64,000 nucleotides of DNA, from assembly GCF_003751605.1 (NCBI RefSeq), contig NZ_RJVJ01000001.1:5208001-5272000 (forward strand), in the 5' to 3' direction. Origin of the DNA: Kitasatospora cineracea (lineage in GTDB: Bacteria > Actinomycetota > Actinomycetes > Streptomycetales > Streptomycetaceae). Position 1 is the first letter of the stretch. Every line of letters starts with the position of its first letter. Below the pieces are notes generated by a model, which was given only the letters and a program-made list of their open reading frames with translations, was not told where the DNA came from and did not search any database. This document shows, piece by piece, positions 41,772-60,241 of the stretch. The position numbers and the translations under genes are program-made.

Positions 41772-43550
41772 ATGACCGAGAACGACGGACTGTCGGCTGC
41801 GGAAGCGGCTAGAGCCGCTGTCACCCGCGACGAGCTGGTGGCGGCTCACGGCGCGCTCTGGTGGCTGGAATCCGATCCGGACCAGGGCGGAGGGAAACGG
41901 CTGGTCCGATCCGAACCGTCCGGCCGGGCCGTCCCGGTCACTCCTTCCGCACTGCCGGTGGGTGGTTCGCTGCACGCCTACGGGGGCGGGAACTTCGCCG
42001 TCGCCGAAGACGCGGTGTGGTTCGTCGGCCCGGGGGACGGGGTCTTCTTCCAGCCCGTCGACGGCGATCCGGTCGTGCTGGAAAAAGGGAACGGCTGGGC
42101 CTACGGGGACCTCTCGCTGAGCCCGGACGGGAGGCTGCTCGCGGTCCGCGGCAACGACGGCACGGACGAGATCGTCGCCATCGCTCCGGACGGACAGGTG
42201 GAGGTGCTCGTCGGCTCCCCCGACTTCCTGGGCCACCCCCGTGTCGCGGGAGGCCGCTTGGCCTTCCTGGAGTGGGACCGGCACCGGATGCCTTGGGACG
42301 GTACCCGGCTGGTTGTCACGGGCATCGGTGACAGCCCGTCAGCTGCGTGCCGGATCGCGGGCGGGCCCGCCGAATCCGTGGTCCAGCCCGTTTGGGGCCC
42401 CGACGGCGAGCTGTACTTCCTGTCGGACCGCACCGGGTGGTGGAACCTCTACCGCCACCGCGCCGCGGGCGCCGTCGAAGCAGTGGCCCCGATCGAAGCC
42501 GACTGCGCTCCGGCCCCGTGGGAGGGCGGCTACCGGTCGTACGCGCTCTCCCCGGCCGGCGACACCGTCCTGACCGCGACGGACGGCATCACCACCGAGT
42601 TGCTCGTGGTGGACGGCGCAGGGCAGGTGTCGCGGATCGGGGCGAACCTCAGCTCCGTGAAGCCGTACGTGGCGCTCCTGGATGATGCGGTCGCCGTGAT
42701 CGGATCGACTCCGACGAGTGCACCGGCGATCTGGACGGCTGATCTCGACAGCCGGTCCGGCGCGGTGGCCCTTCCGGCTTCCGCCGCGGAGCCGCTCACC
42801 GGACCTCGGTCCGGGCCGCCGCCCGTGGTGCGGTCCGTCCCCGGGGCCGACGGGCAGGTGCGCTACCTGCTCCACCTGCCCGAGGCCGACGGCCCGGTAC
42901 CGGTGCTCGTCCGCGCGCACCCCGGACCGACCGACGGGGTGCCCCTGCGGTTGGACTGGTCGGTGCAGTACTTCGTCAGCCACGGCTTCGCGGTCGCGGA
43001 ACCGCTCTACCGCGGGAGCACCGGCCGGGGCCGGGCCTTCCGGCAGCAACTGGACGGCCGGTGGGGCGAACTCGACGTGGACGACTGCGCCGCCGTGGCC
43101 GAGCACCTCGTCGCCCAGGGCGTGGCCCGCCCCGACGCCCTCTTCCTCAGCGGTGCCAGCGCCGGCGGGTACACCACGCTCCAAGCCGCTTGCCGGCCGG
43201 GCCCGTTCGCCGCGGCGACCGCGATCTCGGCGATCATCGACCCGGCCCGGTGGGAGCAGTCGGTACCGGCGTGGCAGCGCCCGCACGCGGTGGCCCTCCG
43301 CGGCCCGGCCGGTGCTGTCCGGCCGGAGCGGATCCGCTGCCCCGTCCTGGTGATCCACGGTTCGAAGGACACCATCACGTCCGGAGAGGATGCCATGGAG
43401 TTCGGCCGCGCCCTCGCCGCCCGCGGGGCGGGCGAGGTGCTGCTGCTGGACGGCGGCGACCACTACCTGTCCGACCCCCGGCACCGTGCGGCGGCGCTGG
43501 CCGCCGAACTCGGCTTCTACCGTACGGCGGTGCTCGGTCTCATCCGGTGA
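41772..43550 (+). CDS. Prolyl-oligopeptidase-family (S9) serine peptidase
   Basis: A 592-residue cytoplasmic hydrolase with an N-terminal beta-propeller (about residues 25-330; repeats such as YGDLSLSPDGRLLAVRG and VQPVWGPDGELYFLSDRTGWWNLY) and a C-terminal alpha/beta hydrolase. The triad is visible: Ser in FLSGASAGGYTTLQ, Asp in VIHGSKDTITSGE and His in LDGGDHYLSDP. It resembles the DPP4/acylaminoacyl-peptidase branch and should release short peptides or acyl amino acids. It is on the same strand as the XRE gene, 80 bp downstream, and its 3' end overlaps the next convergent regulator by 11 bp. Confidence 0.88.
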   Translation: MTENDGLSAAEAARAAVTRDELVAAHGALWWLESDPDQGGGKRLVRSEPSGRAVPVTPSALPVGGSLHAYGGGNFAVAEDAVWFVGPGDGVFFQPVDGDPVVLEKGNGWAYGDLSLSPDGRLLAVRGNDGTDEIVAIAPDGQVEVLVGSPDFLGHPRVAGGRLAFLEWDRHRMPWDGTRLVVTGIGDSPSAACRIAGGPAESVVQPVWGPDGELYFLSDRTGWWNLYRHRAAGAVEAVAPIEADCAPAPWEGGYRSYALSPAGDTVLTATDGITTELLVVDGAGQVSRIGANLSSVKPYVALLDDAVAVIGSTPTSAPAIWTADLDSRSGAVALPASAAEPLTGPRSGPPPVVRSVPGADGQVRYLLHLPEADGPVPVLVRAHPGPTDGVPLRLDWSVQYFVSHGFAVAEPLYRGSTGRGRAFRQQLDGRWGELDVDDCAAVAEHLVAQGVARPDALFLSGASAGGYTTLQAACRPGPFAAATAISAIIDPARWEQSVPAWQRPHAVALRGPAGAVRPERIRCPVLVIHGSKDTITSGEDAMEFGRALAARGAGEVLLLDGGDHYLSDPRHRAAALAAELGFYRTAVLGLIR

Positions 43551-44784
43551 CGGCGGCCGGCAAAACCGCCCTCGTGAACTCCTGCAGCTCCCGCACGGGG
43601 GCGTACCCGCTGTGCGGGCCGAGCGCGCCGAGGACCGCACCGACCCGTTCGACGCACCGGCCCGACCCGGTGCGCGCGGCGTACTCGACGGCCTCGGTGC
43701 CTACCGCACACGCCTGGTCCAACTCGCCGGAAGCGATCCAGGTGGAAGCGAGCAGGGCCGCGTCGATCGCACGCCGACGCACCCGGTCGGTGCCCACTCC
43801 GCCGAGCGCGTCGACCAGTTGTCCCCGGGCGGTCGGCGGCCTGCCGAGGTCGTGGAAGCAGTGGGCCGCCTCGTCCGCGAGGTAGGCGTGGGTGAAGTAG
43901 CCGATCCACGGCGGTTCGTCCGAGCCTCCTTCGTCGAGCAGCCGCTCCGCCTCCAGGAGCAGCCTGGTCGCCTCGTCTTCCCGCTGGAGACGCGCGTTGG
44001 CCCTGGCCACCACCGCCGTGATCGCCGCCCTGGTGGCAGGGCTCGCGGCCGTCCCGGCAGCGGCCAGGGCGGCCGATGCCCAGCGCAGCGCCAACTCGGC
44101 CTCGCCGCAGTGCAACGCGAGGTGCCCGAGGTTGACGGCCGTCAGGTACGCACCGTAGGCGTGGTCGCCGGTGGCGACGGTCAGGTTCAGCGCGCGTTGG
44201 TAGTACGCCTGCGCTTGCTGGGGGCGGCCGTTGTCCACGGCCTGGTAGCCCGCCAGCTCGCAGGCTTCGGCGGTCAGCATGGCCCGCTGGTGCGCGATCG
44301 AGGGACTGGCTGCGGGGCGCTGCTGGAGGTCGTTGAGCTGACGTTCGATGAAATCGGTGACCTGTCCGGCGCTCTGCCTGGCGCCGTAGGTGTGATCGAG
44401 CTGGCGGAACACGGCCAGCATCTGCCTCACCATCCCCAGATCCTCCTCCGTGACCCGCAGGGCCCGGCCAGGGGAGGGCCCACCGGTCGGTGACAGGCCG
44501 ATCCAGTCGTTGACCATGTCGTCGAGGTCATGCAACGACGACGGATTGGAAGACGGGCCGGGGCTTCGGCTGCTGTCGGCCGCCGAGTTGAGCAGAGCGT
44601 CCAACTTTTCGACGCTGATCTTCAACGCCGTTGCGACCCGGGGAAGTTGCCTGGGGTAGGGCGTGGCCTCGCCGCGTTCCCACCGGCCCCAGGTCCGGCG
44701 GTCGACCCCGGCTGCCCGAGCGGCATCGTCCTGGGAGTGGCCGACCGCCCTGCGGCGCATCGCCAGCGGCGACGAGTCGTTCAT
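43540..44784 (-). CDS. XRE-family HTH regulator with TPR repeats
   Basis: A 414-residue regulator. The start is the ATG at 44784 (MNDSSPLAMRRRAVGHSQDD); the frame is open further upstream, but that region holds direct repeats that look regulatory. The HTH is at residues 9-40 (SQDDAARAAGVDRRTWGRWERG). The remainder is a TPR-like array, including QQAQAYYQRALNLTVATGDH and GEAELALRWASAALAAAG. The 3' end overlaps the convergent S9 peptidase by 11 bp. It diverges from the ten-gene array starting at 45131 and may regulate it, with a signal-binding TPR domain. Confidence 0.85.
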   Translation of the reverse strand: MNDSSPLAMRRRAVGHSQDDAARAAGVDRRTWGRWERGEATPYPRQLPRVATALKISVEKLDALLNSAADSSRSPGPSSNPSSLHDLDDMVNDWIGLSPTGGPSPGRALRVTEEDLGMVRQMLAVFRQLDHTYGARQSAGQVTDFIERQLNDLQQRPAASPSIAHQRAMLTAEACELAGYQAVDNGRPQQAQAYYQRALNLTVATGDHAYGAYLTAVNLGHLALHCGEAELALRWASAALAAAGTAASPATRAAITAVVARANARLQREDEATRLLLEAERLLDEGGSDEPPWIGYFTHAYLADEAAHCFHDLGRPPTARGQLVDALGGVGTDRVRRRAIDAALLASTWIASGELDQACAVGTEAVEYAARTGSGRCVERVGAVLGALGPHSGYAPVRELQEFTRAVLPAAVTG

Positions 44785-45130: not shown

Positions 45131-46117
45131 ATGTCATCAGCGCCCACGGCGGTCGGCACCGCCCAACTCGTGCCGCATCCGGCCGGCCATGACGGCGAGC
45201 TGCGGGCGGCGGTCGAGGAACTGCGGCAGGGACGGCGGTTCGCAGCGCGGGCGCTGCTCGCCCGTACCTGGGGGGACCCGGGGCTGTGGGCGGCGCGGAC
45301 CCAGGTACTCGGCGCGGCAGCCGGCCACTCCGACGTGCTCCGCCATTGGGAGACCGAGGAGCCGGAGGCCGTCGGCCTGATCGCGCTGTGCACCCGTGTC
45401 GCGGTGGACCGCGCCGTGCTGGCCGGCCGGCAGCAGCCCGGCTCGCGCGATGCCGCGGCGCTGGACGGGGCTGCCCGGCAGTGGTGCTGGCTGACGGCTT
45501 CGGCGACCGAGGGCGACCCGGTGCCGTGGCTGGGCCTGCTCACCCTCGCGCAGTTGGACTCCCGGCAGGTCCGGCAGGAACACCGAGTGTCGGCGCCCGA
45601 CCGGATGCTGCCACCGGGGCCGTGGGGGCTGTTCGGCCAGGCCCGCCGGGTCGACCCGTGGGGCCGGGAGGCGTTCCACCGGATGCTGCGCTTCTGGGCG
45701 GCCCGCGGTGAGAGCGGTCCCGCTGCCGAGTTCCTGGCCGCCCACCTGCCCGGCGCACCGGAAGGCTCAGCCCTTCACGCCCTGCCGCTGTACCTGTACG
45801 TCGACCGCTACCGCCGAGCGAAGCGCAAGGACGCCGTTCTGCTGCAGTGGACGAACGAGGAGAAGGTCCGCGCCACGGTGCTGACCGCGTTCTCGCACTG
45901 GCAGTTCGCGCTCGAGCGGGGTGCCCGGTGGCCGGTGGGGGACGAGAGTCACCTCGCCCACGCGCTCTGGGCGAGCCGCCGACCCCGGGAGGCGGCCGAG
46001 GTATTCACCGGCATGAGCCCGTTCGTCGCCTCGGAACCCTGGGTGACCATGTCCCCGGACCGGCCGGGTGACCTGCTGCGGCAGGCGCTGGCCCAGTCGT
46101 ACGCCGTCGCCGGCTGA
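45131..46117 (+). CDS. Unknown helical protein, first gene of the array
   Basis: A 328-residue soluble protein with no recognised family. It is rich in Ala, Leu, Arg and Trp and appears all-helical, with repeating features reminiscent of TPR or DUF4034-like repeats (ELRAAVEELRQGRRFAARAL near the N-terminus; HALWASRRPREAAEVFTG near the C-terminus). The ATG has AAGGAGG 9 nt upstream, which is strong. It heads the rightward set leading to the permease 55 bp downstream. Residues 205-245 (ALPLYLYVDRYRRAKRKDAV) are distinctive and may help in searches. Function cannot be assigned. Confidence 0.7.
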   Translation: MSSAPTAVGTAQLVPHPAGHDGELRAAVEELRQGRRFAARALLARTWGDPGLWAARTQVLGAAAGHSDVLRHWETEEPEAVGLIALCTRVAVDRAVLAGRQQPGSRDAAALDGAARQWCWLTASATEGDPVPWLGLLTLAQLDSRQVRQEHRVSAPDRMLPPGPWGLFGQARRVDPWGREAFHRMLRFWAARGESGPAAEFLAAHLPGAPEGSALHALPLYLYVDRYRRAKRKDAVLLQWTNEEKVRATVLTAFSHWQFALERGARWPVGDESHLAHALWASRRPREAAEVFTGMSPFVASEPWVTMSPDRPGDLLRQALAQSYAVAG

Positions 46118-46172
46118 CCGCTGCTCTTCCGTCCGCCGGACTCAACTCCCCTTTTTCACTGGAGGTTTCGCC

Positions 46173-47663
46173 ATGCCCGGATCCAATCCCGTGCTTCTGC
46201 CCGAGGACGACTACCTCCGCTCTCTCGGCTACCAGCCCGAACTGCTGCGCAAGATGGGCTCCTTCGGGAACTTCGCTGTCAGCTTCTCGGTCATCTCGGT
46301 ACTCAGCGGCTGCATGACGCTGTTCGGCTTCGGGCTGACGGCCGGCGGGCCGACCGTGATGATGCTGGGCTGGGTCGCCGTGGGCCTGGCCGTGCTGCTG
46401 GTCGGCATGTCGCTGGCGGAGGTCACCAGCGCCTACCCCACTTCCGGCGCGCTCTTCTACATGTCGAGGCAGCTCGGCGGCCCCCGGTGGGGCTGGGTGA
46501 CGGGCTGGCTGAACTTGCTGGGGCTGCTGGGCGGGATCGCCGGCATCGACTACGGGGCAGCGGGCTTCATCGCGGCGTTCGCCGGACTGCAGTGGGGCGT
46601 CGTTCCGACGCCAGGCCTGATCCTGGGCGTCTTCGCGGGCGTCCTGCTGCTGCATGCGCTGCTGAACGTCGTCGGGGTCCGGGCCGTCAGTGTGCTCAAC
46701 TCGGTCTCGGTATGGTGGCACCTGGCCGGTGTCGCGCTGATCGTCGGTGTGCTGGCCGTCGTGCCCGCCCGCCACCAGACGATGGGCTGGGTGATCGGAC
46801 ACTTCGAGAACGGCACCGGTTGGTCCAGCCCCCTCTACGCCTCTGCGATCGGGCTGCTGCTGGGCGGTTACACCTTCTGCGGCTTCGACGCTTCCGCTCA
46901 CATGAGCGAGGAGACCGCTGACGCACGGGTGGCCGCGCCCCGTGGCATCGTCCGCTCGATCTGGGTGTCGCTGCTGGTCGGGTTCGTCCTGCTGGGCGGC
47001 CTGCTGTTCGCCGTTCAGGACTACGACGGGACGGTCGCCGCCGCGGTGCCGCCCGCACAGATCTTCCTGGATGCGCTCGGCGCGGGCGGCGCGAAGACGC
47101 TGCTGCTGGTCGTCATCGGCGCGCAGCTGTTCTGCGGCAGCGCGGAGACCACCGCCGCGAGCCGGATGATCTACTCCTTCTCGCGGGACGGCGCGCTGCC
47201 GGGCTCGGCGACGTGGCGCCGGGTCTCGGCCAACGGCACTCCGGTGCCGGCGGTGTGGCTGGCGGTGACGGTGGCGTTCGTCCTGGCCGTCCCTTCACTC
47301 TGGTCGGCCACCGCGTACGGCGCGGTGACGGCGGTGAACGTGATCGGCATGACCCCGTCGTACGTCGTCCCGGTCTTCCTGAAGCTGCGCTACCCGCACA
47401 AGTTCACCCCGGGGCCGTGGAACCTGGGCCGCTGGAGCAGGCCGGTGGGGATCGCGGCGGTGGTATGGGTGGCGGTGCTGACGGTACTGGTGTGCCTGCC
47501 GCAGCGCGCCCCGGTGACGGTCGACTCGTTCAACTACGCACCACTCACCCTGCTGGCGGTCCTCGCCATGGCGTGGGTGTGGTGGAAGCTCGCCGGCGAC
47601 AAGTTCGACGTCCCGGTGGTGGCCGACGCCCACCTGGCCAAGATCGAGGCCCAGATCGTATGA
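46173..47663 (+). CDS. APC-superfamily amino acid permease (GABA/polyamine-permease-like)
   Basis: A 496-residue membrane protein with about 12 segments. The N-terminal DDYLRSLGYQPELLRKMGSF and the next FGNFAVSFSVISVLSGCMTLFG, followed by MSLAEVTSAYPTSGALFYMS, are typical of the bacterial GABA permease/amino acid transporter group; GFDASAHMSEETADA marks helix 6. GGAGG lies 7 nt before the ATG. The stop overlaps the start of a glutamine-synthetase-like ligase (ATGA). A permease coupled to such a ligase suggests uptake and gamma-glutamylation of an amine or amino acid, as in PuuP/PuuA. Confidence 0.88.
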   Translation: MPGSNPVLLPEDDYLRSLGYQPELLRKMGSFGNFAVSFSVISVLSGCMTLFGFGLTAGGPTVMMLGWVAVGLAVLLVGMSLAEVTSAYPTSGALFYMSRQLGGPRWGWVTGWLNLLGLLGGIAGIDYGAAGFIAAFAGLQWGVVPTPGLILGVFAGVLLLHALLNVVGVRAVSVLNSVSVWWHLAGVALIVGVLAVVPARHQTMGWVIGHFENGTGWSSPLYASAIGLLLGGYTFCGFDASAHMSEETADARVAAPRGIVRSIWVSLLVGFVLLGGLLFAVQDYDGTVAAAVPPAQIFLDALGAGGAKTLLLVVIGAQLFCGSAETTAASRMIYSFSRDGALPGSATWRRVSANGTPVPAVWLAVTVAFVLAVPSLWSATAYGAVTAVNVIGMTPSYVVPVFLKLRYPHKFTPGPWNLGRWSRPVGIAAVVWVAVLTVLVCLPQRAPVTVDSFNYAPLTLLAVLAMAWVWWKLAGDKFDVPVVADAHLAKIEAQIV

Positions 47664-49060
47664 GGACGACGATGCGGGCCGCTCGCCCCGCGGCAACCCC
47701 TCCCACCAGACCGGTCGGACCGCTGGAGCAACTGGTCACCGACTTCGACCTCGACACCGTGCTGGTGGCGATGATCGACCAACAGGGCAGACTCAAGGGC
47801 AAGGAGTACGACGCGGCCGGGCTGGCCGAGCGGCTGGCGGCAGGGTCGTCGCTGGAGGTGTGCGGCTACCTGCTCGGCACCGATGTGGACATGACCCCGG
47901 CAGCACGCGGACCGTTCTCGTGGACGAGCGGGTTCGGCGACGTCGAGATGTTGCCCGGTACGGAGCGGGCCCGGCTGCTGCCGTGGTTGCCGGCCACCGC
48001 GCTGGTCCTCGCCGACCTGGTCAGTTACGGAGCCCCGCATCCGCTGGCTCCGACTACGGTGCTGGAGCGGCAACTGCGCCTGCTGGCCCGCCTCGGCGTC
48101 GTACCCCAGGTCGGCATCGAGACGGAGTTCGTGCTCTACGAGGGCACCCTCCGGGACGCGGAGGCGTCCGGGTGGCGTCGCCTTCGCCCCGCGGCCTGCG
48201 GAAACCGCGACTACGCGCTGGACGCCCCCGGCCCGGTGCGGGAGTTCGGCCGTCGCCTGCGGCAGGTCCTCGGGGCGGCCGGCCTGCCGGTCGAGGCCGT
48301 CAAAGGGGAAGGTGCGCCCGGTCAGGTCGAAGTGACCTTCCCGTACGGAGTCGCCGAGGAAGCGTGCATCCAGCACGTGCTGTTCAAGCATGCCGCGAAG
48401 ACGGTCGCGGACGGGCTGGGGCTGACAGCGTCGTTCATGGCGGCGAACCCCGGTGGGGTCGGCTCGGGGATGCACCTGCACGTCTCCCTGCACGACGGTG
48501 ACGGCCGGTCGCTGCTGGCCGCCGACCCGGAGCGCGGCACGGAGCTGTCGGAACTGGGCGGGTGGGCGGTGGCCGGGCTGCTGGCCGCGATGGGGGAGTT
48601 CGGCCCGCTGTGGGCGCCGTACGTCAACAGCTACAAGCGGCTCGCCACCGACCACTCCTTCGCGCCGACCCGCCTCGCGTGGGGTCGGGACAACCGGACG
48701 TGCGCGGTCAGGGTGGTCGGCCACGGCCCCAGCCTGCGGCTGGAAGTGCGGCTGCCGGGCGCGGACGCCAACCCGCTGCTCGCCCTGGCAGCAGCGCTGG
48801 CCGGCATCCGGCACGGCATCACCGCCAGGCTCGAACCCCCGCCCGCCGTCAGCGGCGACGCCTACGTGCTGCTCGACGCCCCACCGGTGCCGTGCTCCCT
48901 CCAGGAGGCCGTCGGCCTGTTCGAGGCCAGCGCGCTGGCCGGGGAACTACTGGGCGAACCTGTGGTCCGGCACCTGGCGCGGGTGGCCCAGATGGACCTG
49001 GACCACCACGCCGCGCGCGTCACCGACGCCGAGGTCGAGCGCGGCCTGGCCCAGGCGTGA
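47660..49060 (+). CDS. Glutamine-synthetase-family ligase (gamma-glutamyl-amide type)
   Basis: A 466-residue GS-fold enzyme, distinct from housekeeping GlnA. Active-site pieces are QVGIETEFVLYEG (metal Glu), EGAPGQVEVTFPYG, GGVGSGMHLHVSL (metal His), and NSYKRL with FAPTRLAWGRDNRTCAVRV (ATP and glutamate site). The N-terminal beta-grasp half (about residues 25-120) is present. This type ligates glutamate to amines or amino compounds with ATP (PuuA/GlnA3-like). It is coupled by ATGA to the permease, so it probably acts on the imported compound. The true acceptor is unknown; the Tyr adenylylation region of GlnA was not recognised. Confidence 0.87.
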   Translation: MRTTMRAARPAATPPTRPVGPLEQLVTDFDLDTVLVAMIDQQGRLKGKEYDAAGLAERLAAGSSLEVCGYLLGTDVDMTPAARGPFSWTSGFGDVEMLPGTERARLLPWLPATALVLADLVSYGAPHPLAPTTVLERQLRLLARLGVVPQVGIETEFVLYEGTLRDAEASGWRRLRPAACGNRDYALDAPGPVREFGRRLRQVLGAAGLPVEAVKGEGAPGQVEVTFPYGVAEEACIQHVLFKHAAKTVADGLGLTASFMAANPGGVGSGMHLHVSLHDGDGRSLLAADPERGTELSELGGWAVAGLLAAMGEFGPLWAPYVNSYKRLATDHSFAPTRLAWGRDNRTCAVRVVGHGPSLRLEVRLPGADANPLLALAAALAGIRHGITARLEPPPAVSGDAYVLLDAPPVPCSLQEAVGLFEASALAGELLGEPVVRHLARVAQMDLDHHAARVTDAEVERGLAQA

Positions 49061-49145
49061 GTCCCGGGACGGCAGCGGACCAGCCTCCGAGCCCGCCGTC
49101 GGCCTGAACCAACTTCCTTGTACTGAACGACTGTTGGAGATCCAC

Positions 49146-51140
49146 ATGAGTATCACCGCCCCGTCCGGTACGGCGCCGCTACCCGGACTGCTGTCGGCCG
49201 TCCACCTCGTCGGGTCCTGCGAGCCCGGAATGGAGGGCCTGGCCCGCTGGCTGGCCGGGGCCGGTGCCGACGTCACCGGCAGCGTCCCCGAGGCAGAGCA
49301 GGGCGCCCCGGCCGTGGCCGCCCTCGCCGAGGCGGGCATCCGGGTGCGGGTCGGATTCGACGCCGAACACCTGCTCGCCGACCGCACCGCGGTGCTGTGG
49401 TCGGGGGCGAGCGGGCCGCACCCCGAACTGGACCGCGCCCAGGCGCTACGGCTGCCGATCCTGAGCCGGGACATTGCCCTCAGGGCGGTCTGCGCCGAGG
49501 CCGGCAGCGGGGCGGTGGCCGTGGCCGGCAGCCACAGCACTGCTACCGCGGCCGCCGCCCTCGCCCATCTCCTCGACGACGGAGCCACCGGCTGGATCCT
49601 CAACACTCCGGCCCGCGGAGCCACCGCCGGGCACGCGGCCGGGCAGCGGGTCGTGGTGGACCTGTGCCCGGACACCGCCACCCACGAGGCCGCCCCGAGG
49701 GGCGGCTGGCAGCGACGTCCCACACCGTACGTCCGGCTCGCCACCGAACAGCTCGCCGCCGCGCTGATCATGGCGACCGGCGCCAACGTCCCGCACTACG
49801 AGGACCACGTCGCCGGTCTCGACGCCGCCGAACGTCTCGCCCGCCGCACCGACATCCTCGTCCTGCCGACTTGGGACAACAGCACGGTCAACCTGCGCGA
49901 ACGCCTGGCAGACCGCCCCGTGCCCGGCCAGCACGTGGTCACCGTCGGTATCGCCCCCGACTCCACCGCCCGGATCGTTCACCTCACCCGCACCGGGGTG
50001 GGCTATCGCACCGTACTGCGCTACCGGCAGGAGGAGCACTCCTTCCTCCTGCCGGTCACCGGCGAGCACCACGCCCGAGCGGTGTGCGCCGCCGTCGCCT
50101 GCGCGCTGGCGCTCGGCGAGCACCCGCAGACCGTCGTCGCCCGAGCCGCCGGCTTCCGCGGAGTCGAGGGCTGCCTCGCCACTGCCGCCACCCAGCGCGG
50201 CGTCACCGTGGCCATGTCCCGTGCCCGGCACCCGCACGAGGTCGCCCAGGACGTGCAGGCAGCCCGCTTGCTGACCGAAGGCGCGCTGATCGCTGTCCTG
50301 GAACCGGACGGTATCGCCCGCGCCGGCGCCCACGCCGCCGAACTCGGAGACGCCCTCGTCGGCGCCGACCAGGTACTGCTGCTGCCGGTCAACACCCCGT
50401 TGGCCGGACACGCCGGGCCGGACCCGCTGGAGGCCATCGAGGAGATGGCCCGTCAGCGGCGCGGTGACGGCACCGTCCATCGCACCGGCCGTAGCCCGGA
50501 GCAGCAGATCGACGGACTGGTCGGGGAGGGGGACCTGGTCCTCGTCATCGGCACCGGGGCGGCTCGGCTGCTGGGGCCGCGCCTGCTGGCTCGCCTGGGT
50601 CACCCCACTCCGCCGACCGCGCCCGCTCCCGGCCTCGACCAGGAGACGGCTGCGGTCGCGAACAGCCTCAGCGACCTCACCCCCAAGAGCATCGAACTCG
50701 CTGTCGCCATCGCGGCCGGCCGCACCGCCCGCGACATCGCCCGCGGCTCCAGCACCTACCGGAGTACCGAAGGCGCCCGAAAAGCGGTCGAACACCTTCT
50801 ACGCAAGACCGGCGCCCGCCACCGCCGCCAGCTCACCGCTTGGGCAACCGCCGCGAAGATCGTCACCGCTCCGTCCCGCGACACGAAGGCGCTGACCTCC
50901 CCGCCAGTTCTACCGCCCCGGATCCAGACGATTCTCCAGGGCTGGGCCGACGGCCGCTCCACCGAGGAGATCAGGAAGGAGCTCAACGTTTCCCAGCCGA
51001 TCCTGGACGTCTACATCCGCACCCTGCAACTGCACTTGGACGTGGACACCCTCGAGCAGGCCATGGTCGTGGCCGTCCTTTCGGGCCTCGTCCGAGTCGA
51101 ACTGCCCGGAGATCCGTACCCGGCGGAGGTGACGCCGTGA
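49146..51140 (+). CDS. MurC-like protein with degenerate P-loop fused to two C-terminal helix-turn-helix domains
   Basis: A 664-residue protein. Residues 17-485 follow the order of Mur ligases of the MurC type: N-terminal Rossmann (AVHLVGSCEPGMEGLARWLA, then NPEL-like HPELDRAQAL), central domain, and C-terminal domain (GEHHARAVCAAVACALALG, ARHPHEV, EGDLVLVIGTGA). The ATP loop, normally GTHGKTTT, reads GSHSTATA (128-135), so the Lys is lost and ligase activity is doubtful. Residues 508-570 and 588-645 look like LuxR-type HTH regions (LTPKSIELAVAIAAGRTARDIA; IQTILQGWADGRSTEEIRKELNVS). It may be a DNA-binding sensor derived from MurC. The ATG has GGAG upstream; it overlaps the next gene (GTGA). 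Confidence 0.8.
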   Translation: MSITAPSGTAPLPGLLSAVHLVGSCEPGMEGLARWLAGAGADVTGSVPEAEQGAPAVAALAEAGIRVRVGFDAEHLLADRTAVLWSGASGPHPELDRAQALRLPILSRDIALRAVCAEAGSGAVAVAGSHSTATAAAALAHLLDDGATGWILNTPARGATAGHAAGQRVVVDLCPDTATHEAAPRGGWQRRPTPYVRLATEQLAAALIMATGANVPHYEDHVAGLDAAERLARRTDILVLPTWDNSTVNLRERLADRPVPGQHVVTVGIAPDSTARIVHLTRTGVGYRTVLRYRQEEHSFLLPVTGEHHARAVCAAVACALALGEHPQTVVARAAGFRGVEGCLATAATQRGVTVAMSRARHPHEVAQDVQAARLLTEGALIAVLEPDGIARAGAHAAELGDALVGADQVLLLPVNTPLAGHAGPDPLEAIEEMARQRRGDGTVHRTGRSPEQQIDGLVGEGDLVLVIGTGAARLLGPRLLARLGHPTPPTAPAPGLDQETAAVANSLSDLTPKSIELAVAIAAGRTARDIARGSSTYRSTEGARKAVEHLLRKTGARHRRQLTAWATAAKIVTAPSRDTKALTSPPVLPPRIQTILQGWADGRSTEEIRKELNVSQPILDVYIRTLQLHLDVDTLEQAMVVAVLSGLVRVELPGDPYPAEVTP

Positions 51141-51316
51141 GCCCCAACACGCAGGGCGGACGCCAGCCGGGAGACGGTTGCGACATACCGCGTCGGGCGT
51201 GTTACTGCCTCGGTTCCACCACCGGCTTCCCCGGGGTGTGCCCCATGGCGCTGGCGAGCACGGCCACCGTCCGCGCCACCGGTGTGCCGGTTCCGACCCG
51301 GGGAGCGGAGCAGTGA
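51137..51316 (+). CDS. Small Cys-containing protein, 59 residues
   Basis: A short unknown protein supported mainly by translational coupling: its GTG overlaps the previous stop (GTGA) and its TGA overlaps the next GTG (GTGA). The middle holds DGCDIPRRACYCLGSTTGFP with a fourth Cys soon after (GVCPM); the C-x7-C-x-C pattern may bind metal or form disulphides. No family was recognised. It could also be a spacer frame that is translated only to couple its neighbours. Confidence 0.5.
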   Translation: MSPNTQGGRQPGDGCDIPRRACYCLGSTTGFPGVCPMALASTATVRATGVPVPTRGAEQ

Positions 51317-51603
51317 CTCCGGAACGCCGGATCGCCCGCGTCGGAGCGGTGCTGGTGTGCTTCCTGCTCGGCTGGCCGGTCGGGGCCGCGCTGATGTTCC
51401 TGCTCGAACACCGGGCCAGCGCCCAGCCGGCCTGGCTCGCCTTGGCTGCCGGCTCTGCCCTCGCGGCGGCCGCGGGCTGCGACTGGCTGCTGCGCTGCCG
51501 TGCGGCAGGCGGCCGTACTTCCACGCACCGCACCCATGGCGGCCGTCCGGGTCAGGGCCGCACCTCTCCTACCTCCGCACCGGTTCCTCCTGCAGAGAAG
51601 TGA
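51313..51603 (+). CDS. Small two-helix membrane protein, 96 residues
   Basis: An unknown protein with two predicted membrane segments (about residues 9-28, ARVGAVLVCFLLGWPVGAAL, and 35-53, PAWLALAAGSALAAAAG), then a charged, Ser/Thr/Pro-rich cytoplasmic tail from residue 58. The GTG start overlaps the upstream stop (GTGA), and its stop overlaps the following ATG (TGATG), which supports translation. It is placed between the MurC-like/HTH protein and the deoxyribosyltransferase-like protein. Function cannot be inferred. Confidence 0.55.
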   Translation: MTPERRIARVGAVLVCFLLGWPVGAALMFLLEHRASAQPAWLALAAGSALAAAAGCDWLLRCRAAGGRTSTHRTHGGRPGQGRTSPTSAPVPPAEK

Positions 51604-52118
51604 TGAGCCCTCAACTCCCCTCATTCGTTTCGCTCCCCGCAGGCTTGCGTTACATCGAGGCGCCGGAGCCGTTCCACCCGGACGGCCGCCCGTCGCTGTA
51701 CCTGGCCGGGGCGACCGTCGGCTGCCCGGACTGGCAGTCGGAGGCGGTCGGCCTGCTGGAGGACGCCGGCTTCGACGGCACCGTCCTCAACCCCAGGCCC
51801 TCCCGCAACACCGTCACCAACTCCTATGCCGCGTGGTCTCCGTTCGGCTGGCAGGACCGCAACATCCGCCGTACCAGTGTCGTGCTGTTCTGGAACCCGC
51901 TCAGCCACGCACGCGTACAGGAGTGCTACCAAGCCCACCTGTCCACCGCGTACGGCGGGGCGGTGGTCGTCGGTTGCGACCCCGCCGACATCGTCCAACG
52001 GGCCAACCGCGCATTGCTCGTCCATGCCCTGCCGTGGCTGGCCGTCGCGGACACGCTCGCCGGCACCGTCTCTGCAGCCCTCGCCGAACTCGAAGTCGCC
52101 GCCTCACCTCGGTACTGA
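51603..52118 (+). CDS. Nucleoside 2-deoxyribosyltransferase-like protein
   Basis: A 171-residue protein resembling the small Nuc_deoxyrib_tr2 group. The core starts SLYLAGATVGCPDWQSEAV (family-typical start of the Rossmann-like fold), then GFDGTVLNPRPSR, and DRNIRRTSVVLFWNPLSHARVQ, where the acidic residue and the beta-strand fit an N-glycosidase/ribosyltransferase pocket. Known members exchange or cleave bases from deoxynucleosides; many distant ones are uncharacterised and phage-linked. The ATG overlaps the stop upstream (TGATG). It could be a base-releasing enzyme acting on nucleotide-like compounds; that is inference. Confidence 0.75.
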   Translation: MSPQLPSFVSLPAGLRYIEAPEPFHPDGRPSLYLAGATVGCPDWQSEAVGLLEDAGFDGTVLNPRPSRNTVTNSYAAWSPFGWQDRNIRRTSVVLFWNPLSHARVQECYQAHLSTAYGGAVVVGCDPADIVQRANRALLVHALPWLAVADTLAGTVSAALAELEVAASPRY

Positions 52119-52153
52119 CCACCCATCACCCACCTGCCCACGTCAGGATCTCC

Positions 52154-54051
52154 ATGCTCCGCACCCTGCCCCGGTACCGGATCGAGGACCATGCGCTCCT
52201 CGGCAACACCGCCTCGGCCGCCCTGGTCCTCCCGAACGGGACCGTCGACTGGGCGTGCCTGCCCGGCTTCGACTCCCCGGCGCTCTTCTCCTCCCTGCTC
52301 GGCGGCCCCGAGCACGGCTACTGGCGCATCGGCCCGGCCGTCCCGGACGGCCCGCCCCCGGACGCCGACCGCCGCCAGTACCTGGGCGACACCATGGTCC
52401 TGCGGCAGGAGTACGACACCGCCAGCGGCACCCTGGCCGTCACGGACTTCATGCCGGCCCCCGACTCCACCGGCGCGGCCGCGCCGCGGATCGTACGGAT
52501 CGTCGAATGCGTGAGCGGTGTCGTGGACGTCGTCTCCGTCTACCGGCCCCGCGCCGACTACGGCGCCGCCGCGCCGCTCATCCAGCAGGCCACCTCCCGT
52601 GCTCCGTGGCTGTCGGCCACCGTCGGGGCCGACACCTACTGGCTCCAGGGCGGTCGCGACCACTCGGTCAACCGCGACCGGATGTGCCGTGCCACGTTCA
52701 CCCTGGCCGCGGGCGAGGTCACCGCGTTCATCCTCACCTGGGGCCCCACCCGACGCGGCGGGTCCGCCCCGGCCCGGCCGGACGCCCTCGCCGAGCTGGT
52801 CGAGACCGTGCGGCACTGGGAGCGGTGGGCACGCGGGTGCACCTACCGCGGACCCCACCGGGAGGCGGTGATGCGCTCGGCCCTCACCCTGGCGGCGATG
52901 TGCCACCCGGACGGCGGCATCGTGGCCGCGCCGACCACGTCCCTGCCCGAGGAGATCGGCGGCACCCGCAACTGGGACTACCGGTTCGTCTGGCTGCGCG
53001 ACAGCGCGCTGGCCGCCGCCACCCTGCTGCGCCTGGGGCGGCTGGAGGAGGCCCGGCGCTGGCTGCACTGGCTCATCACGACCGTCGACCCCGCACACCT
53101 CCAGCCGATCTACCGCCTCGACGGCACCACCGACCTCACCGAACAGATCCTGGACCACCTGCCCGGCTACGAGGGCTCCCGGCCGGTGCGCCTCGGCAAC
53201 GCCGCCGCCGGCCAGCTCCAACTCGACGTGTTCGGCGAGATCGCCGACACCCTGCTGCTGGCCGAGGACGCCGGACTGTCCCCGAGCCGTGGACCGACAT
53301 CCTGCTGCTGGCCCTCGCCCGGCAGGTGGAGCGCCGCTGGCACGAGCCGGACGAGGGGATCTGGGAAATCCGCGGCCCAGCCCGCCACTTCACCCACTCC
53401 AAGATCATGTGCTGGATGGCTGTCGACCGGACCCTGCGGCTGCTGCAACGCCGCCCCGACCCCGATGCCGCCCTCCTGCACCACCTCGCCGAACTGCGCG
53501 AGCAGATCCACGCCGACGTGTGCGAACGAGGCGTCGACCCCGAACGGGGCGTCTTCACCCAGTACTACGGCTGCCGGGAGCTGGACGCCTCTCTGCTGCT
53601 GATCCCGCTGGTCGGTTTCCTCCCGCCGGACGACAAGCGCGTCATCGCCACCGTCGAGGCCATCCAGCGCGAACTGTCCACCGACGACGGCCTCGTGCTG
53701 CGCTACGCCACCGGGCAGCACGCCGCCGCGAACGTCGACGGTCTCTCCGGCCACGAAGGCGCCTTCCTCGCCTGCTCGTTCTGGCTGGTCGAAGCACTGA
53801 CCGCCATCGGCCGCGACGGCGAGGCCCGCGAGCTGTTCGACCGGCTCCTGTCGCTGCGCAGCGACCTGGGCCTGCTCGCCGAGGAGCGGGACCCGCACGC
53901 CTGCCGGCAACTCGGCAACTACCCGCAGGCGTTCTCCCACTGGGCGCTTGTCGACGCCGCGCTCCGCCTCGACCAGAACCGGCCGACGGCCGCGGCGGGC
54001 GAGACGCTTCCGGCCCGACAGCCGCAGCTCGCGGGGCAGGTGAGCCGGTGA
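52154..54051 (+). pseudogene. GH15 glucoamylase/trehalase-like protein, one-base frameshift in the middle
   Basis: About 632 residues when the frame is restored. An N-terminal beta-sandwich (YRIEDHALLGNTASAALV, TVDWACLPGFDSPALFSSLL) precedes an (alpha/alpha)6 barrel with GGTRNWDYRFVWLRDSAL, WEIRGPARHFTHSKIMCWMA (general-acid region) and GHEGAFLACSFWLVEAL (base region). GH15 members hydrolyse alpha-1,4-glucans or trehalose. The frame breaks at the C4 run 53280-53283: AEDAGLS ends one frame and PEPWTDILLLALARQ continues in the next; one more C repairs it. No signal peptide, so it is cytoplasmic. Its stop overlaps the next start (GTGA). Confidence 0.85.
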
Positions 54052-55213
54052 CCGCCACCCCGCTGCCCGACGGCGCCCTCGGCGCTGCGCTCGCCCGCTT
54101 CCCCCTCACACCCCCTGTCCCTGCCCGGACGGCGCCGCCGCTGGAGCAGCGGGTGGACGACCTGGACGCGCTGGCCCGCCGCGCCGCCGAGAGTGGCGAC
54201 ACCGCGCTGGCTGCCGAGGTGCACCGCCGCGCCGCACTGCTGCACTTCGACCTGGGCCACCCCGGTACGGCGTACGCGCTGTGCAACCTCCACACCGCCC
54301 TGTTCCTCGGGCACCGCCCGCTGAGCGTCGAACTCGCCCGGTGCGCGCTGGAGTTGCAGCTCACCCACGCCGAGCTCCTGATCCGTGAGGGCCTGCCCGG
54401 CACCGCCATCGAGCTGGTCCAGGAGATCCTGCGGGCCATCGGGGCGGGCCAGGATGCCGCGGCGGCCGCCGCCGGGATCCTGCCGCTGGCCGGCCTCACC
54501 GCCACCGAGCAGGACCGCATCACCCTCTATGACTGGTGGGACAACGCCTCTCTGCAGCTCCTGGCCACCGCGCTGGTGCGTGCCGGCGAGTGGTCGAAGG
54601 CCCGGCTCGTCCTGAAGGCAGACCCTGTTCCGCCGCCCGGCCCGGCCGCCGCCCGGCAAATCGAGACGATCACCCTGGCCCTCGGCGGCCAGCACCGGAT
54701 CGCCGCGACACTGCTGGCCAAGACCCCCCCCTCGACCCCCGCACCCCCTGGGAACACGCGGTCGCCGCCGCGCTCGCCGTCGTCTGCGCCTTGCTCGCCG
54801 GACAAACAGACAGCGGCGAACTCACCGCACTGTTCGACGTGCTGGGTGACGCCCACGACACCTACGACCCCACCGGCGACCCGCTGTTCGACACGCAGCT
54901 GACGCTCGCCTGCGCCGACCTGTGCACCGCTGCGGAGCGGCCGGCGGGCGCGCACCGGCTCTACGAGATCGCCACCGACTGGGCGCTCCAGACCCCCGAC
55001 GGCCACAGCGCCCGCGCCCTGCTGGGCCACGACCTCGCCGCCCGACTGCCCGAAGAGCACAGACGGGAACTGACCGAGACCACCATCCGCGCCGGATTCC
55101 GGGCTGCCGCGCTGCCGCACGACCTCGACGGCCGGGTCACGGCCGCGCTGGCCCTGGCCGCCGAGGCCATCACCAGCGCCACCGCCAACTCCGCCCTGCC
55201 GCAGCAGCCGTGA
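54048..55213 (+). pseudogene. Unknown helical (TPR-like) protein, one-base frameshift
   Basis: About 388 residues when corrected. The N-terminal half (to LLAKTPP) and the C-terminal half (from TPWEHAVAAALAVVCALLAG) lie in different frames joined at the C8 run 54724-54731; one extra C gives a continuous helical protein. It is Ala/Leu-rich with TPR-like pieces (AEVHRRAALLHFDLGHPGTA, then LCNLHTALFLGHRPLS; AAERPAGAHRLYEIATDWAL). It resembles the first protein of the array in composition. The GTG start at 54048 overlaps the GH15 stop (GTGA). No function can be assigned. Confidence 0.65.
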
Positions 55214-55319
55214 CCGGGCCGACTACCGCGCCGCACTCCCGGGCACCCCCGCGGTTTGGTCCGGCGCAGCTCCCCGGTACGCCGTCCGCACCGACCCCGA
55301 CACTGAGAGGCACACATCC

Positions 55320-56276
55320 ATGACCACCACGCCCCCGCCCGCCACTGCCGAGCCCGCCCGCCCGGTCATGCTGCACGTCGGCTGGAACATCCAGCACGGC
55401 TGGAAGCTCCCCGAGGCGATCGGCTTGTTGAAGCAGTTCGCCCAGGAGCACGGCGTTGACCGCCCGCACCTGCTCACCCTCCAGGAACTCCAGGAGGACC
55501 AGGCCGAGAAGGTGGCCGAGCAACTGGGGCTGGCCTGCGTCGAGGCACCCAACGTCCGCCCCGGGTCGCGCAACGCGCTCTTCTACGACCCCGAGATGTT
55601 CCAGCCCGACCCGGACTGGACCGCCTACTCCACCGAGGTCCGGCACCGCCCCGCCACCGCGAAACTCCGCCTCATCCACCCCGACACCGGCGTCCTCGGC
55701 CGGCGCGAGATGTCGGTGGCGAGCATCCACCTCGACTTCGGCGACCCCGACAACCGGCAGCACCAGATCCGCTGGCTGCTGGCCAACATGTACAAGCACA
55801 ACTGGCTGGCCCTCTTCCAGGGCGACATGAACAGCTGGCCGGTGTGGGGCTGCCCGCTCTCCCTGGACCGGGTCGTGGACCGTGCGTTCGCTCTGGACCG
55901 CTCGATCATCCGGGCCGACGTAACCACCGGGCCCGACGACGTGCCCGACCGGATCATGACCACCCGCCACATGGTCGATGTCGGTCGGCACGCCGCCACC
56001 GTGCTCGGCCAGACCGGCGCGGACCGGGCCACCACCTGGGACGGGCCCAAGAAGGCCCGCCAGCAGATCCCGGCCGAGGACTGCCCGCCCGGTGGCCTCG
56101 GCCCGATCGACCGCACCTACGTCTCCCGGGAGCTGGAGCCCGCACTCCTCTCGTCCGCGACCCCCGCCACGCCCGAGGTGGAAGCGGTCTCCGACCACCT
56201 CCCGCAGGTCACCGCCTGGGATCTGCGGCAACTGTGGGAGGTGATGGACGCCGAGGTCGAGACCGTCCGCCACTAG
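55320..56276 (+). CDS. Endonuclease/exonuclease/phosphatase (EEP) fold protein
   Basis: A 318-residue protein of the DNase I/AP-endonuclease-like fold. Catalytic signatures are in order: VGWNIQHGWK (Asn), LLTLQELQEDQ (metal Glu), ASIHLDFGD, LFQGDMNSWP (GDxN) and VSDHLPQVTAWD (terminal SDH). The substrate may be a nucleic acid or a phosphodiester small molecule; it lacks a signal peptide. The ATG has GAGAGG upstream. The stop codon TAG is part of the CTAG target at which an IS701-type element has inserted, so the reading frame is preserved. It is the last gene of the array before the element. Confidence 0.85.
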   Translation: MTTTPPPATAEPARPVMLHVGWNIQHGWKLPEAIGLLKQFAQEHGVDRPHLLTLQELQEDQAEKVAEQLGLACVEAPNVRPGSRNALFYDPEMFQPDPDWTAYSTEVRHRPATAKLRLIHPDTGVLGRREMSVASIHLDFGDPDNRQHQIRWLLANMYKHNWLALFQGDMNSWPVWGCPLSLDRVVDRAFALDRSIIRADVTTGPDDVPDRIMTTRHMVDVGRHAATVLGQTGADRATTWDGPKKARQQIPAEDCPPGGLGPIDRTYVSRELEPALLSSATPATPEVEAVSDHLPQVTAWDLRQLWEVMDAEVETVRH

Positions 56277-56330: not shown

Positions 56331-56579
56331 ATGGGCTACGACGTGCACATCACGCGGCGCGAGAACTGGTGGGATGAAGAGGGCCAGGACATCAGCACGG
56401 CGGAATGGGAAGTGCTGGTCGCTACCGACCCCAGCCTCGTGATGGTTCCGATGTGGTGGAACGCCGGGCGGATCGTGTCCAAGAACCCGAGCGATGCGGT
56501 GATCGCGACGATGTGCCGGGTGGCGAAGGAGCTGGACGCCCGGGTTCAGGGCGACGACGGCGAGTACTACGACGCCTGA
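56331..56579 (+). CDS. YDxHITR-family small protein carried inside the IS701-type element
   Basis: An 82-residue protein (MGYDVHITRRENWWDEEGQD at the N-terminus; ELDARVQGDDGEYYDA at the end). It is a clear relative of the two proteins encoded at 60467-60772 and 60787-61086, sharing the YDxHITR start and the ARVQGD end. Those two follow a YD-repeat toxin and are candidate immunity proteins. It lies between the left inverted repeat and the transposase, so it travels with the element. The ATG has a weak site. It may protect the host against a toxin, be an orphan immunity gene, or have a family-wide function that is not immunity. Confidence 0.75.
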   Translation: MGYDVHITRRENWWDEEGQDISTAEWEVLVATDPSLVMVPMWWNAGRIVSKNPSDAVIATMCRVAKELDARVQGDDGEYYDA

Positions 56580-56611
56580 CGGCTGCGGCCACCGCGAGAT
56601 GATCAAGGGTT

Positions 56612-57960
56612 GTGTGGACTCTTGAAGATCGTGTGGTGGCCGCGAGCGATAGCGTAGACCCTGCTCGATGGCGGGCGTTGTTCGACCAGGCCATGGCCAG
56701 GATTGCGGGCCTGTTCGGACGGGTGGAACCGCGGGCCACCGCCCGCGCCTATCTGCTCGGCTTGCTGTCCGGCACCGAGCGCAAGAACTGCTGGCGGCTG
56801 CGGAGCACGCCGGCCATGCCCGGCCCGGACCGATGCAGCGGCTGCTGCGGGGTGCCCGGTGGGACGCGGACGCAGCGTGCGACGAGGTTCGCCGCTACGT
56901 CCTGGACCACCTCGGCACCGACGATGGTGTCCTGATCGTGGACGAGACCGGATTCCTGAAGAAGGGCCGCGGTTCGGCCGGTGTCCAGCGGCAGTACACC
57001 GGCACCGCCGGACGGATAGAGAACAGCCAGGTCGGCGTCTTCCTCGCATACGCCTCCAGCAAGGGTCGGGCGTTAATCGACCGTCGGCTCTACCTGCCCG
57101 AACACACCTGGTGCCAGGACGCTGAACGCCGCCGCAGGGCCGGCGTGCCCGACGACATCGTCTTCGCGACCAAACCCCGCCTCGCCCTGCAGATGATCGC
57201 GGCGGTGCTGGACGCCGGAGTGAGTACGTCGTGGGTGACCGGCGATGAGGCATACGGGCAGGACCCCGGCCTGCGGGCCGGGCTGGAGGCCCGCGGGATC
57301 GGCTACGTGCTGGCGGTCTCATGCGCGACCAGGGTGCGGATCAACCAGGGACGCACCCCGATCCGCACGGACGAGGTCGCCAATCGCCTGCCCGTCTCCG
57401 CCTGGCACCGGCAGAGTGCCGGCGCCGGGGCGAAGGGGCCCCGCTACTACGATTGGGCCTGGGTGCGCATCGGCACTGGCGACTACCGCCACCTGCTGAT
57501 CCGCCGCAATCCCACGACCGGCGAGCTCGCCTTCTACCTGTGCTGGTCACCCCGGACCGTGCCACTGTCCGAGCTGGTGCGCGTCGCCGGCACCCGCTGG
57601 TGCATCGAGGAATGCTTCCAGGCGGCCAAGGGCCAGGTCGGCCTGGATCACTACCAGGTCCGGAACTGGACTGCCTGGCATCGGCACGTCACCCTGGCCA
57701 TGCTCGCCCTTGCGTTCCTGGCTGTCGCCGTCGACGACGCGCGGCCGACCAGGCCTGCGGATCCGAACCGTCCCACCCGAAACGGGGAACCGGTCGACCT
57801 CACCGTCCCGGAGGTCCGCCGCTTGATCGGCGTACTGTTCAGCCCTCCGGCCACGTCCCTGCGTGCGCTCCTGCACTGGTCGAACTGGCGCAGAAGCCAC
57901 CAGGCTTCGGCACGTCGCAGCCACTATCGGCGGCGACTTTCCGTTCCCTCAGGAACGTAG
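56612..57960 (+). pseudogene. IS701-family transposase, one-base frameshift
   Basis: About 449 residues when corrected. The GTG start (VWTLEDRVVAASDSVDPARW) follows AAGGG. Frame 1 ends after ERKNCWRL; the next frame continues AEHAGHARPGPMQRLLRGA. One missing G at about 56800 (CTGCGGAG for CTGGCGGAG) explains it. The DDE residues are visible in LIVDETGFLKKG (Asp), VTGDEAYGQDPG (Asp) and RWCIEECFQAAKGQVGLDHY (Glu). The C-terminus ends at the right inverted repeat, the stop codon sharing its first base with it. No slippery sequence is visible at the break, so programmed frameshifting is unlikely. Confidence 0.85.
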
Positions 57961-59696: not shown

Positions 59697-60241
59697 TGCC
59701 CGCCCCGCTCGGCGTCCGGGTCGGTCAGGGCGATCAGCGCCGCCAACTCGTCGGCGGTCGCGTCGGTGACCTCGATCGGGCCGCCGTCCTGCCCGCTGAT
59801 CTCCGTGCGCAGCGGCCGGTCCAGGCCGCGCAACCGGGCCCGACGCTCCATGATCCGCAGCGCCCGGTCGATCGCGGGCAGCTCGCCGTCGCGCACTGCC
59901 CGCCGGTACGCGACGAGGAACAGCCGGTCCAGCCGGGCGTCCTCCAGGGCCCGCAGCGCCTCCATGTCGGCCTGCGACGAGGCGATCCGCTGCTCCAGGG
60001 CCTCCGTGATGTCCCGGTTCACCGACCGGATCAGGGTCTCCTCGTCCGGCGCGGGGCGGCCCTTGGCGTACAGCTCGTGCCCGTACCCCAGCGGGTAGGC
60101 GATCCGGTCGGAGTTCAGGGTCGGGTCGGCGGCGAGCTTGCGGCCGACGGTCAGCGGGTCGGCGCCGGCCAGGCGCAGTTCGACGGCGTCCGCCCGCCGC
60201 TGGGCGATGGCGGCGCGCTGAGCCCGGGTAGGGCGGGGCAT
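59693..60241 (-). CDS. Phage terminase small subunit-like protein
   Basis: A 182-residue protein preceding the large terminase by a 4-bp overlap. The start is the ATG at 60241 (MPRPTRAQRAAIAQRRADAV), with GGAGGA 9 nt upstream. The N-terminal part looks like a helix-turn-helix (VELRLAGADPLTVGRKLA; residues 20-40), used for DNA recognition in packaging. A charged helical region with an ERQ-like coiled-coil segment (residues about 75-130) follows. Assignment rests mostly on position; sequence similarity is weak by eye. Confidence 0.7.
   Translation of the reverse strand: MPRPTRAQRAAIAQRRADAVELRLAGADPLTVGRKLAADPTLNSDRIAYPLGYGHELYAKGRPAPDEETLIRSVNRDITEALEQRIASSQADMEALRALEDARLDRLFLVAYRRAVRDGELPAIDRALRIMERRARLRGLDRPLRTEISGQDGGPIEVTDATADELAALIALTDPDAERGGQ

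Follow-up and report, generated by a model that had tools for sequence, protein, structure and literature searches.

What could a permease, an amide ligase, a MurC-like protein and a trehalase-like hydrolase be doing in one row of genes? The question is raised by a 64,000-nucleotide stretch of the 8.76 Mb genome of Kitasatospora cineracea (contig NZ_RJVJ01000001.1), hereafter the window, in which ten genes, P1 to P10, lie on the + strand between positions 45131 and 56276. An earlier note on this DNA had described ten same-strand genes with overlaps of 1-4 bp, and five junctions do overlap (P2/P3, P4/P5, P5/P6 and P8/P9 by 4 bp, P6/P7 by 1 bp). The domain families recognized by Pfam are an APC permease, a glutamine synthetase (GS) catalytic domain, the N- and C-terminal Mur ligase domains, the helix-turn-helix (HTH) domain GerE, and GH15 with TREH_N. 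The families named by the note stand for these genes; its nucleoside deoxyribosyltransferase (NDT) is recovered by structure comparison alone, and its endonuclease/exonuclease/phosphatase (EEP) is a weak assignment. Judged by sequence, the array is a conserved, mix-and-match predicted operon of Kitasatospora.

The order of the genes is widely kept. The Mur/HTH protein was searched in 200 genomes of the family; among 20 stretches picked from the matches, mostly of 20 kb, P1, P2, P3 and the Mur gene follow one another in the same order and on the same strand in 14, with an NDT-like gene in 12 and a GH15 gene in 13. A profile of P1 run on 70 Kitasatospora genomes gave 21 close loci (E below 1e-100) spread over 19 genomes. 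All 21 have an adjoining permease and a GS-like gene, 20 have a pseudo-Mur gene (the exception is G073), 14 an NDT-like gene and 15 a GH15 gene. When strong matches only are counted, P1 and the pseudo-Mur gene (19 and 23 carriers) occur together in 18 of the 70 genomes (Fisher p about 2.5e-11), and 15 of the 16 carriers of the NDT-like gene also have the pseudo-Mur gene; such p-values are generous because the genomes are related. Several of the loci L038-L056 and L058-L076 are the same place in two copies of one genome. The co-occurrence of P1 and pseudo-Mur and the kept order and strand indicate that the array is more than a chance assembly. The neighbourhood search proposed by the note, anchored on the Mur/HTH protein and P1, returned a conserved order and not scattered homologues. 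A literature search, with most subscription papers outside its coverage, yielded no description of the gene combination or of P1. The enzyme families are each known. In the literature searched, which includes parts of PMC6529630, PMC8998196 and PMC7159879, there appears to be no account of the P1-permease pairing, of a pseudo-MurC maintained next to a LuxR-type gene or of the cassette structure.

The first gene of the array is defined by its neighbour. P1 has no Pfam family, and a sequence search of solved structures returned nothing up to E = 1. Its AlphaFold model is all-helical (mean predicted local distance difference test score, pLDDT, 94.7), and the nearest solved folds are TPR proteins with low TM-scores. 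A contig scan with 15 P1 sequences and no permease in the query detected 311 relatives, and a P2-like permease comes after P1 in all of the best 80 loci, which were kept. At 26 distant P1 loci, a non-random set hand-picked from the match lists, a same-strand permease lies within 500 bp of P1, on either side, in 23; a permease was undetected at the other three, L155, L156 and L185. The permeases linked to distant P1 proteins fall into three groups. P1 is thus a putative partner protein of APC permeases. On a tree of 79 of 122 P1 sequences, in which chromosomal Streptomyces were thinned by number and L131 was omitted because its extended open reading frame (ORF) ran on, the GS neighbour requires four gains or losses, and chromosomal Streptomyces form a GS-less clade.

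The third gene carries the residues of a GlnA4-type enzyme. In 23 sequences, the metal, glutamate and ATP residues of P3 (E154, E156, E217, E224, H272 and E362; R327 and R364; H274 and R351) are invariant. F334 occupies the position of the ammonia-site flap Glu, where GlnA4, an ethanolamide synthetase whose catalytic residues are listed in PMC6529630, is likewise reported to have Phe (E327 flap position). Compared with the five other GS proteins of the window genome, P3 is closest to a GlnA4-like protein (43%). The two genes after that of the GlnA4-like protein read as dehydrogenases, one an aldehyde dehydrogenase and the other of the short-chain type; this separate locus is likely the true ethanolamine cluster. 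P3 is fairly likely to be a gamma-glutamyl-amide ligase of the GlnA4 type, and amine uptake with gamma-glutamylation is the probable function of the front end. The residue pattern supports the amine-linked chemistry of the earlier note for the permease and GS-like genes.

Linear plasmids of Streptomyces harbor a comparable triad. Twelve plasmid records were matched, and all eight loci opened (H5, H6, H8, H9, H10, H12, H13 and H14) show, in this order, genes annotated as hypothetical protein, amino acid permease and glutamine synthetase family protein. The catalytic residues are kept in the eight GS copies, with Phe or Cys at the flap position. A conservon is annotated in the stretch near the triad in four of the eight loci, and a GH15 gene lies just upstream of the triad in one; other triads adjoin a cluster for an ATP-grasp ribosomally synthesized and post-translationally modified peptide (RiPP) or an FxLD lanthipeptide.

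The fourth gene resembles that of a cell-wall enzyme, without the ATP-binding lysine. Both Mur domains of P4, PF01225 and PF02875, are above cut-off, its Mur part and the MurC of the window genome share 33% identity, and MurC chains in the PDB match it. P4 shares with MurC (UDP-N-acetylmuramate--L-alanine ligase) the N- and C-terminal Mur domains, and differs from it in an altered glycine-rich loop and in the GerE-type protein fused or next to it. The P-loop lysine is absent in all 15 valid Mur-like rows, which read GSHST, GSHGT or GTHST (the row of L033 was excluded as wrong-strand, hence n=15), whereas the genome's own MurC keeps GTHGKTTTT. The P4 Mur domain is read as a pseudo-ligase because this lysine is missing. 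It appears to be maintained, though ligation is not expected, since the ratio of nonsynonymous to synonymous substitution (dN/dS) of the Mur part is 0.27-0.48 in six closer relative pairs, like that of other array genes. The Mur/HTH fusion reported by the note exists in the window and is local to it; relatives have separate neighbouring genes. Locus L065 has two HTH genes, and the HTH of the window is nearer the second (46 vs 36%), which suggests that a deletion may have fused Mur and HTH in the window. A search of plasmids for Mur/HTH gave nothing beyond weak matches to part of Mur, on three of them. In several Kitasatospora genomes (L159-L164) there is also a second gene of MurC type, whose glycine-rich loop is intact; the genes adjoining it read as a MurF-like protein, a D-Ala-D-Ala ligase and a threonine dehydratase. 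A similar set is annotated on a Streptomyces plasmid (L211), where it lies some 2 kb beyond the P1 triad.

The downstream genes are more varied. The best Foldseek match to a predicted model of P7 (pLDDT 86) is the NDT structure 4mcj, with probability 1.0 and TM 0.53-0.63; Pfam gives P7 no NDT match, and its homologues on plasmids are annotated as NDT domain-containing. NDT enzymes have a conserved Glu nucleophile. The P7 family shares their fold, but at no position do 90% or more of its 17 sequences carry an acidic residue (Asp or Glu); P7 probably has an NDT fold without catalysis, and the nucleotide-linked chemistry of the note is weakened. P8 has the GH15 and TREH_N domains of trehalases and glucoamylases. 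In 13 intact relatives, Glu is invariant at E402 and E572/E573, which we take to be the catalytic-motif residues; because phmmer matched no solved structure up to 1e-5, these positions are assigned from motifs and not from a solved relative. Inspection by eye shows no clear signal peptide in the relatives, and the enzyme is therefore likely cytosolic. The GH15 gene and the second helical gene of the note, P9, are present, each split by a frameshift in the window. The frame switch is visible in codon-position GC, and alignment to relatives locates the sites (Table 1), that of P9 in a run of C. Counterparts in relatives are intact, those of GH15 in 13 aligned sequences; the frameshifts may be mutations or assembly errors, as the sequence is compatible with both. 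Homologues of P10 (61% and 49%) lie downstream in L040 and L046. No match to P5 was found among the relatives' loci, and the ideas that it encodes a signal peptide or the precursor of a RiPP were rejected, as it is absent from every relative. An NB-ARC/TPR protein lies directly after GH15 in L060 (18902-20974, by Pfam), and proteins resembling it follow GH15 in L061, L064 and L052.

Comparison of loci indicates that the array is a mosaic of the cassettes P1-permease, GS-Mur-HTH and NDT-GH15, each with a separate history. Pairwise identities correlate within the cassettes (rho 0.81 for P1-P2, 0.85 for P3-Mur over 19 loci, 0.75 for Mur-HTH and 0.59 for NDT-GH15) and less across them. In the 13 loci with all six proteins, rho is 0.92 for P1-P2, 0.70 for P3-Mur (permutation p 0.0005) and 0.59 for NDT-GH15. 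One locus, L058, displays identities to the window of 77/90% for P1/P2, 57/48% for P3/Mur and 75/76% for NDT/GH15. At L052, L055 and L057, a Mur-HTH(-NDT)-GH15 module stands without P1-P3 behind a short protein labelled roadblock/LC7-like from its sequence. Of these, L055 (G000:C1:3201001-3221000) is a second pseudo-Mur/NDT-like/GH15 cluster of the window genome itself, with its NDT region inside a long ORF that has a LuxR-like start. The conserved orphan system suspected by the note is thus conserved in order and undescribed, and consists of exchangeable cassettes, not of one evolving unit.

These observations can be arranged into a chain from a transporter-ligase front end to a pseudo-Mur/HTH relay with GH15 on the output, which as a complete scheme is offered tentatively and with considerable doubt. 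The permease P2, with P1 as its dedicated solenoid partner, would bring in some small amine or amino compound for P3 to couple to the gamma-carboxyl of glutamate. P4, a MurC without the ATP-binding lysine, may act as a scaffold or bind a ligand, in conjunction with the LuxR/GerE-type HTH, whose gene is separate elsewhere; it would set transcription according to what it reads, which would be either the gamma-glutamyl product or a precursor of the cell wall. P6 may link the relay with the membrane, P7 would use the NDT fold for binding, and GH15 would act on the output side as a leaderless, probably cytosolic trehalase or alpha-glucosidase. The conserved order, the cassettes, the loss of the Mur lysine, the intact GS residues, the NDT fold and the P1-permease adjacency are supported directly; the substrate, the ligand, the direction of signalling and all of the regulation are what we infer from them. 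The likely switch of the array is the XRE-type protein encoded divergently upstream, full-length homologues of which (53-74%) are divergent from P1 in eight distinct relative loci. A palindrome, TGTCATGNNCATGA, lies upstream of P1, at a distance of 33-41 bp in L047, L049 and L042. L047 and L049 have it without a mismatch, L042 with one, L070 with two and the window with three (shuffle fraction 0.09). It is a possible operator of the XRE protein, and as a shared operator a lead only, because the pattern was derived from the same sequences.

The roadblock/LC7-like genes that take the front-end position before Mur-HTH and the conservons near half of the plasmid triads also count in favour of this transporter-to-relay scheme. 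Conservons are roadblock/DUF742/GTPase operons, and none of their four proteins (kinase-like, roadblock, DUF742 and GTPase) is among the ten array products. A bolder version, which is quite improbable, holds that across the Streptomycetaceae the P1 family are dedicated TPR-like partner subunits of APC permeases, that in Kitasatospora the two-part transporter feeds a new type of signalling, in which a dead MurC coupled to a LuxR-type regulator reads a gamma-glutamylated amine and a dead NDT provides a further binding module, and that this chemical input can be swapped for a conservon-like one before the same pseudo-Mur/HTH output. Several points weigh against the scheme. The P1-permease loci without GS in the chromosomal Streptomyces clade imply that P1 is not specific to this relay. 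Correlation across cassettes is low (rho 0.17-0.56 in the 13 loci), and therefore the NDT/GH15 end may function apart from the front end; freely exchanging cassettes may share a promoter and no more. DNA binding by the P4 HTH is predicted from its family, the palindrome is present in few loci and absent from the other XRE-type loci examined, the window assembly has both GH15 and P9 broken, and P5, P9 and the EEP protein P10 have no role in the scheme.

Other explanations account for parts of the same evidence. A pathway of amine catabolism similar to the ethanolamine cluster of Streptomyces, in which a compound is taken up, gamma-glutamylated and oxidized before glutamate is released, and in which the other genes are accessories, would explain the permease beside a GlnA4-type ligase and the GlnA4-like pattern of its substrate site. 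As far as the accessible part of PMC6529630 describes the glnA4 cluster, the array shares with it the permease next to a GS-like ligase and lacks its aldehyde dehydrogenase, short-chain dehydrogenase, amidotransferase and EpuRI; Pfam and NCBIfam find no such dehydrogenases and no glutamine amidotransferase among the ten products. The extra genes of the array, namely P1, pseudo-Mur, HTH, NDT-like and GH15, are absent from that cluster, and catabolism leaves the last four unexplained. The window genome moreover has its separate GlnA4-like gene with dehydrogenase-like followers, and catabolism is, on balance, unlikely. Amine uptake and gamma-glutamylation could instead supply or protect a building block of some natural product encoded nearby, and plasmid triads do lie near terpene, P450, prenyltransferase, ATP-grasp RiPP or FxLD lanthipeptide genes, as FxLD-like precursors lie near four Kitasatospora relatives. 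Linear plasmids are rich in biosynthetic clusters regardless, which counts against this explanation; the array has no biosynthetic core, and because the neighbouring products vary between loci a common building block is unlikely. Such an accessory role is therefore considered doubtful.

The array may also be no functional unit at all, but a recombination hot spot where cassettes of separate function share one promoter region. The differing histories of the cassettes, tails that change from locus to locus and two frameshifted genes in the window are in keeping with this, whereas order and strand constant over many loci, overlapping starts and joint presence across genomes speak against it; a hot spot is regarded as improbable. 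Least probable is a defence or conflict system with NDT and EEP proteins as effectors, and the defence-like reading of the note is unsupported. What support such a system has comes from the NB-ARC/TPR protein right after GH15 in L060, with lookalikes at other loci, and from a weak match of P7 to an NDT-like retron effector structure, at rank 43. PADLOC gave no match for nine of the ten products (the P9 pieces were scanned separately and GH15 was left out), the acids of the NDT-like protein are unconserved, the NB-ARC protein and EEP lie outside the constant core, and amine-metabolism genes lead the array. The accessible part of a paper on conflict systems makes no mention of Kitasatospora, trehalase, Mur ligase or deoxyribosyl.

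Table 1. Positions in the window of the array genes, of sites within P4 and of the two upstream neighbours.
Feature	Coordinates	Strand	Basis
P1, TPR-like alpha-solenoid (putative)	45131..46117	+	No Pfam family; AlphaFold; permease adjacency
P2, APC-superfamily permease	46173..47663	+	Pfam; best NCBIfam model 2A0304, under its cut-off
P3, GS-like gamma-glutamyl-amide ligase, GlnA4 type (predicted)	47660..49060	+	Invariant catalytic residues, F334
P4, pseudo-MurC domain fused to LuxR/GerE-type HTH region	49146..51140	+	Pfam
P4, degenerate P-loop GSHSTAT (vs GTHGKTT)	49527..49547	+	Alignment; MurC structure 1gqq
P4, GerE DNA-binding domain (by family)	50910..51074	+	PF00196, 25.8 bits vs cut-off 23.5
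P5, ORF of 59 amino acids (aa)	51137..51316	+	No homologue found
P6, small hydrophobic, probable membrane protein	51313..51603	+	Sequence reading; in 10/20 loci
P7, NDT-like fold, probably non-catalytic	51603..52118	+	Foldseek; no conserved acid
P8, GH15/TREH_N gene, frameshifted near 53270	52154..54051	+	Pfam on both pieces
P9, helical TPR-like gene, frameshifted near 54735	54048..55213	+	Intact 394-aa homologue in L045
P10, EEP-like	55320..56276	+	PF03372 18.9 bits, sub-threshold (cut-off 24.5)
S9-family prolyl oligopeptidase, upstream neighbour	41772..43550	+	Peptidase_S9
XRE-type HTH protein, divergent from array	43540..44784	-	HTH_31/HTH_3 above cut-off, TPR below

The surroundings of the array are mixed. 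Copies of the S9 peptidase, 55-74% identical, lie upstream in ten distinct fetched loci. Further upstream (36579-40190, - strand), a tightly packed group contains two dCTP deaminase-like genes, a metallophosphoesterase and a MurA-like enolpyruvyl transferase, labelled by eye; it has no homologue among the fetched loci. Downstream (56331-57960, + strand), a DDE_5 transposase is preceded by a small ORF, which looks like a transposon passenger gene because its counterpart in L159 (82%) is paired with an 89% identical transposase. On the - strand beside the array (58161-60241), a Terminase_6N phage-type large subunit and a probable small subunit are encoded, a possible prophage remnant. Short FxLD lanthipeptide-like precursors, then larger genes, lie downstream in L047, L052, L057 and L143.

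The array bears on transport and regulation in antibiotic producers. If P1 and APC permeases pair physically, amino-acid transporters of a large class in these organisms have a partner protein that has been overlooked. If the relay is true, a cell-wall enzyme would have been recycled as a sensor of gamma-glutamylated amines, and nitrogen compounds would be linked to regulation beside natural-product genes.

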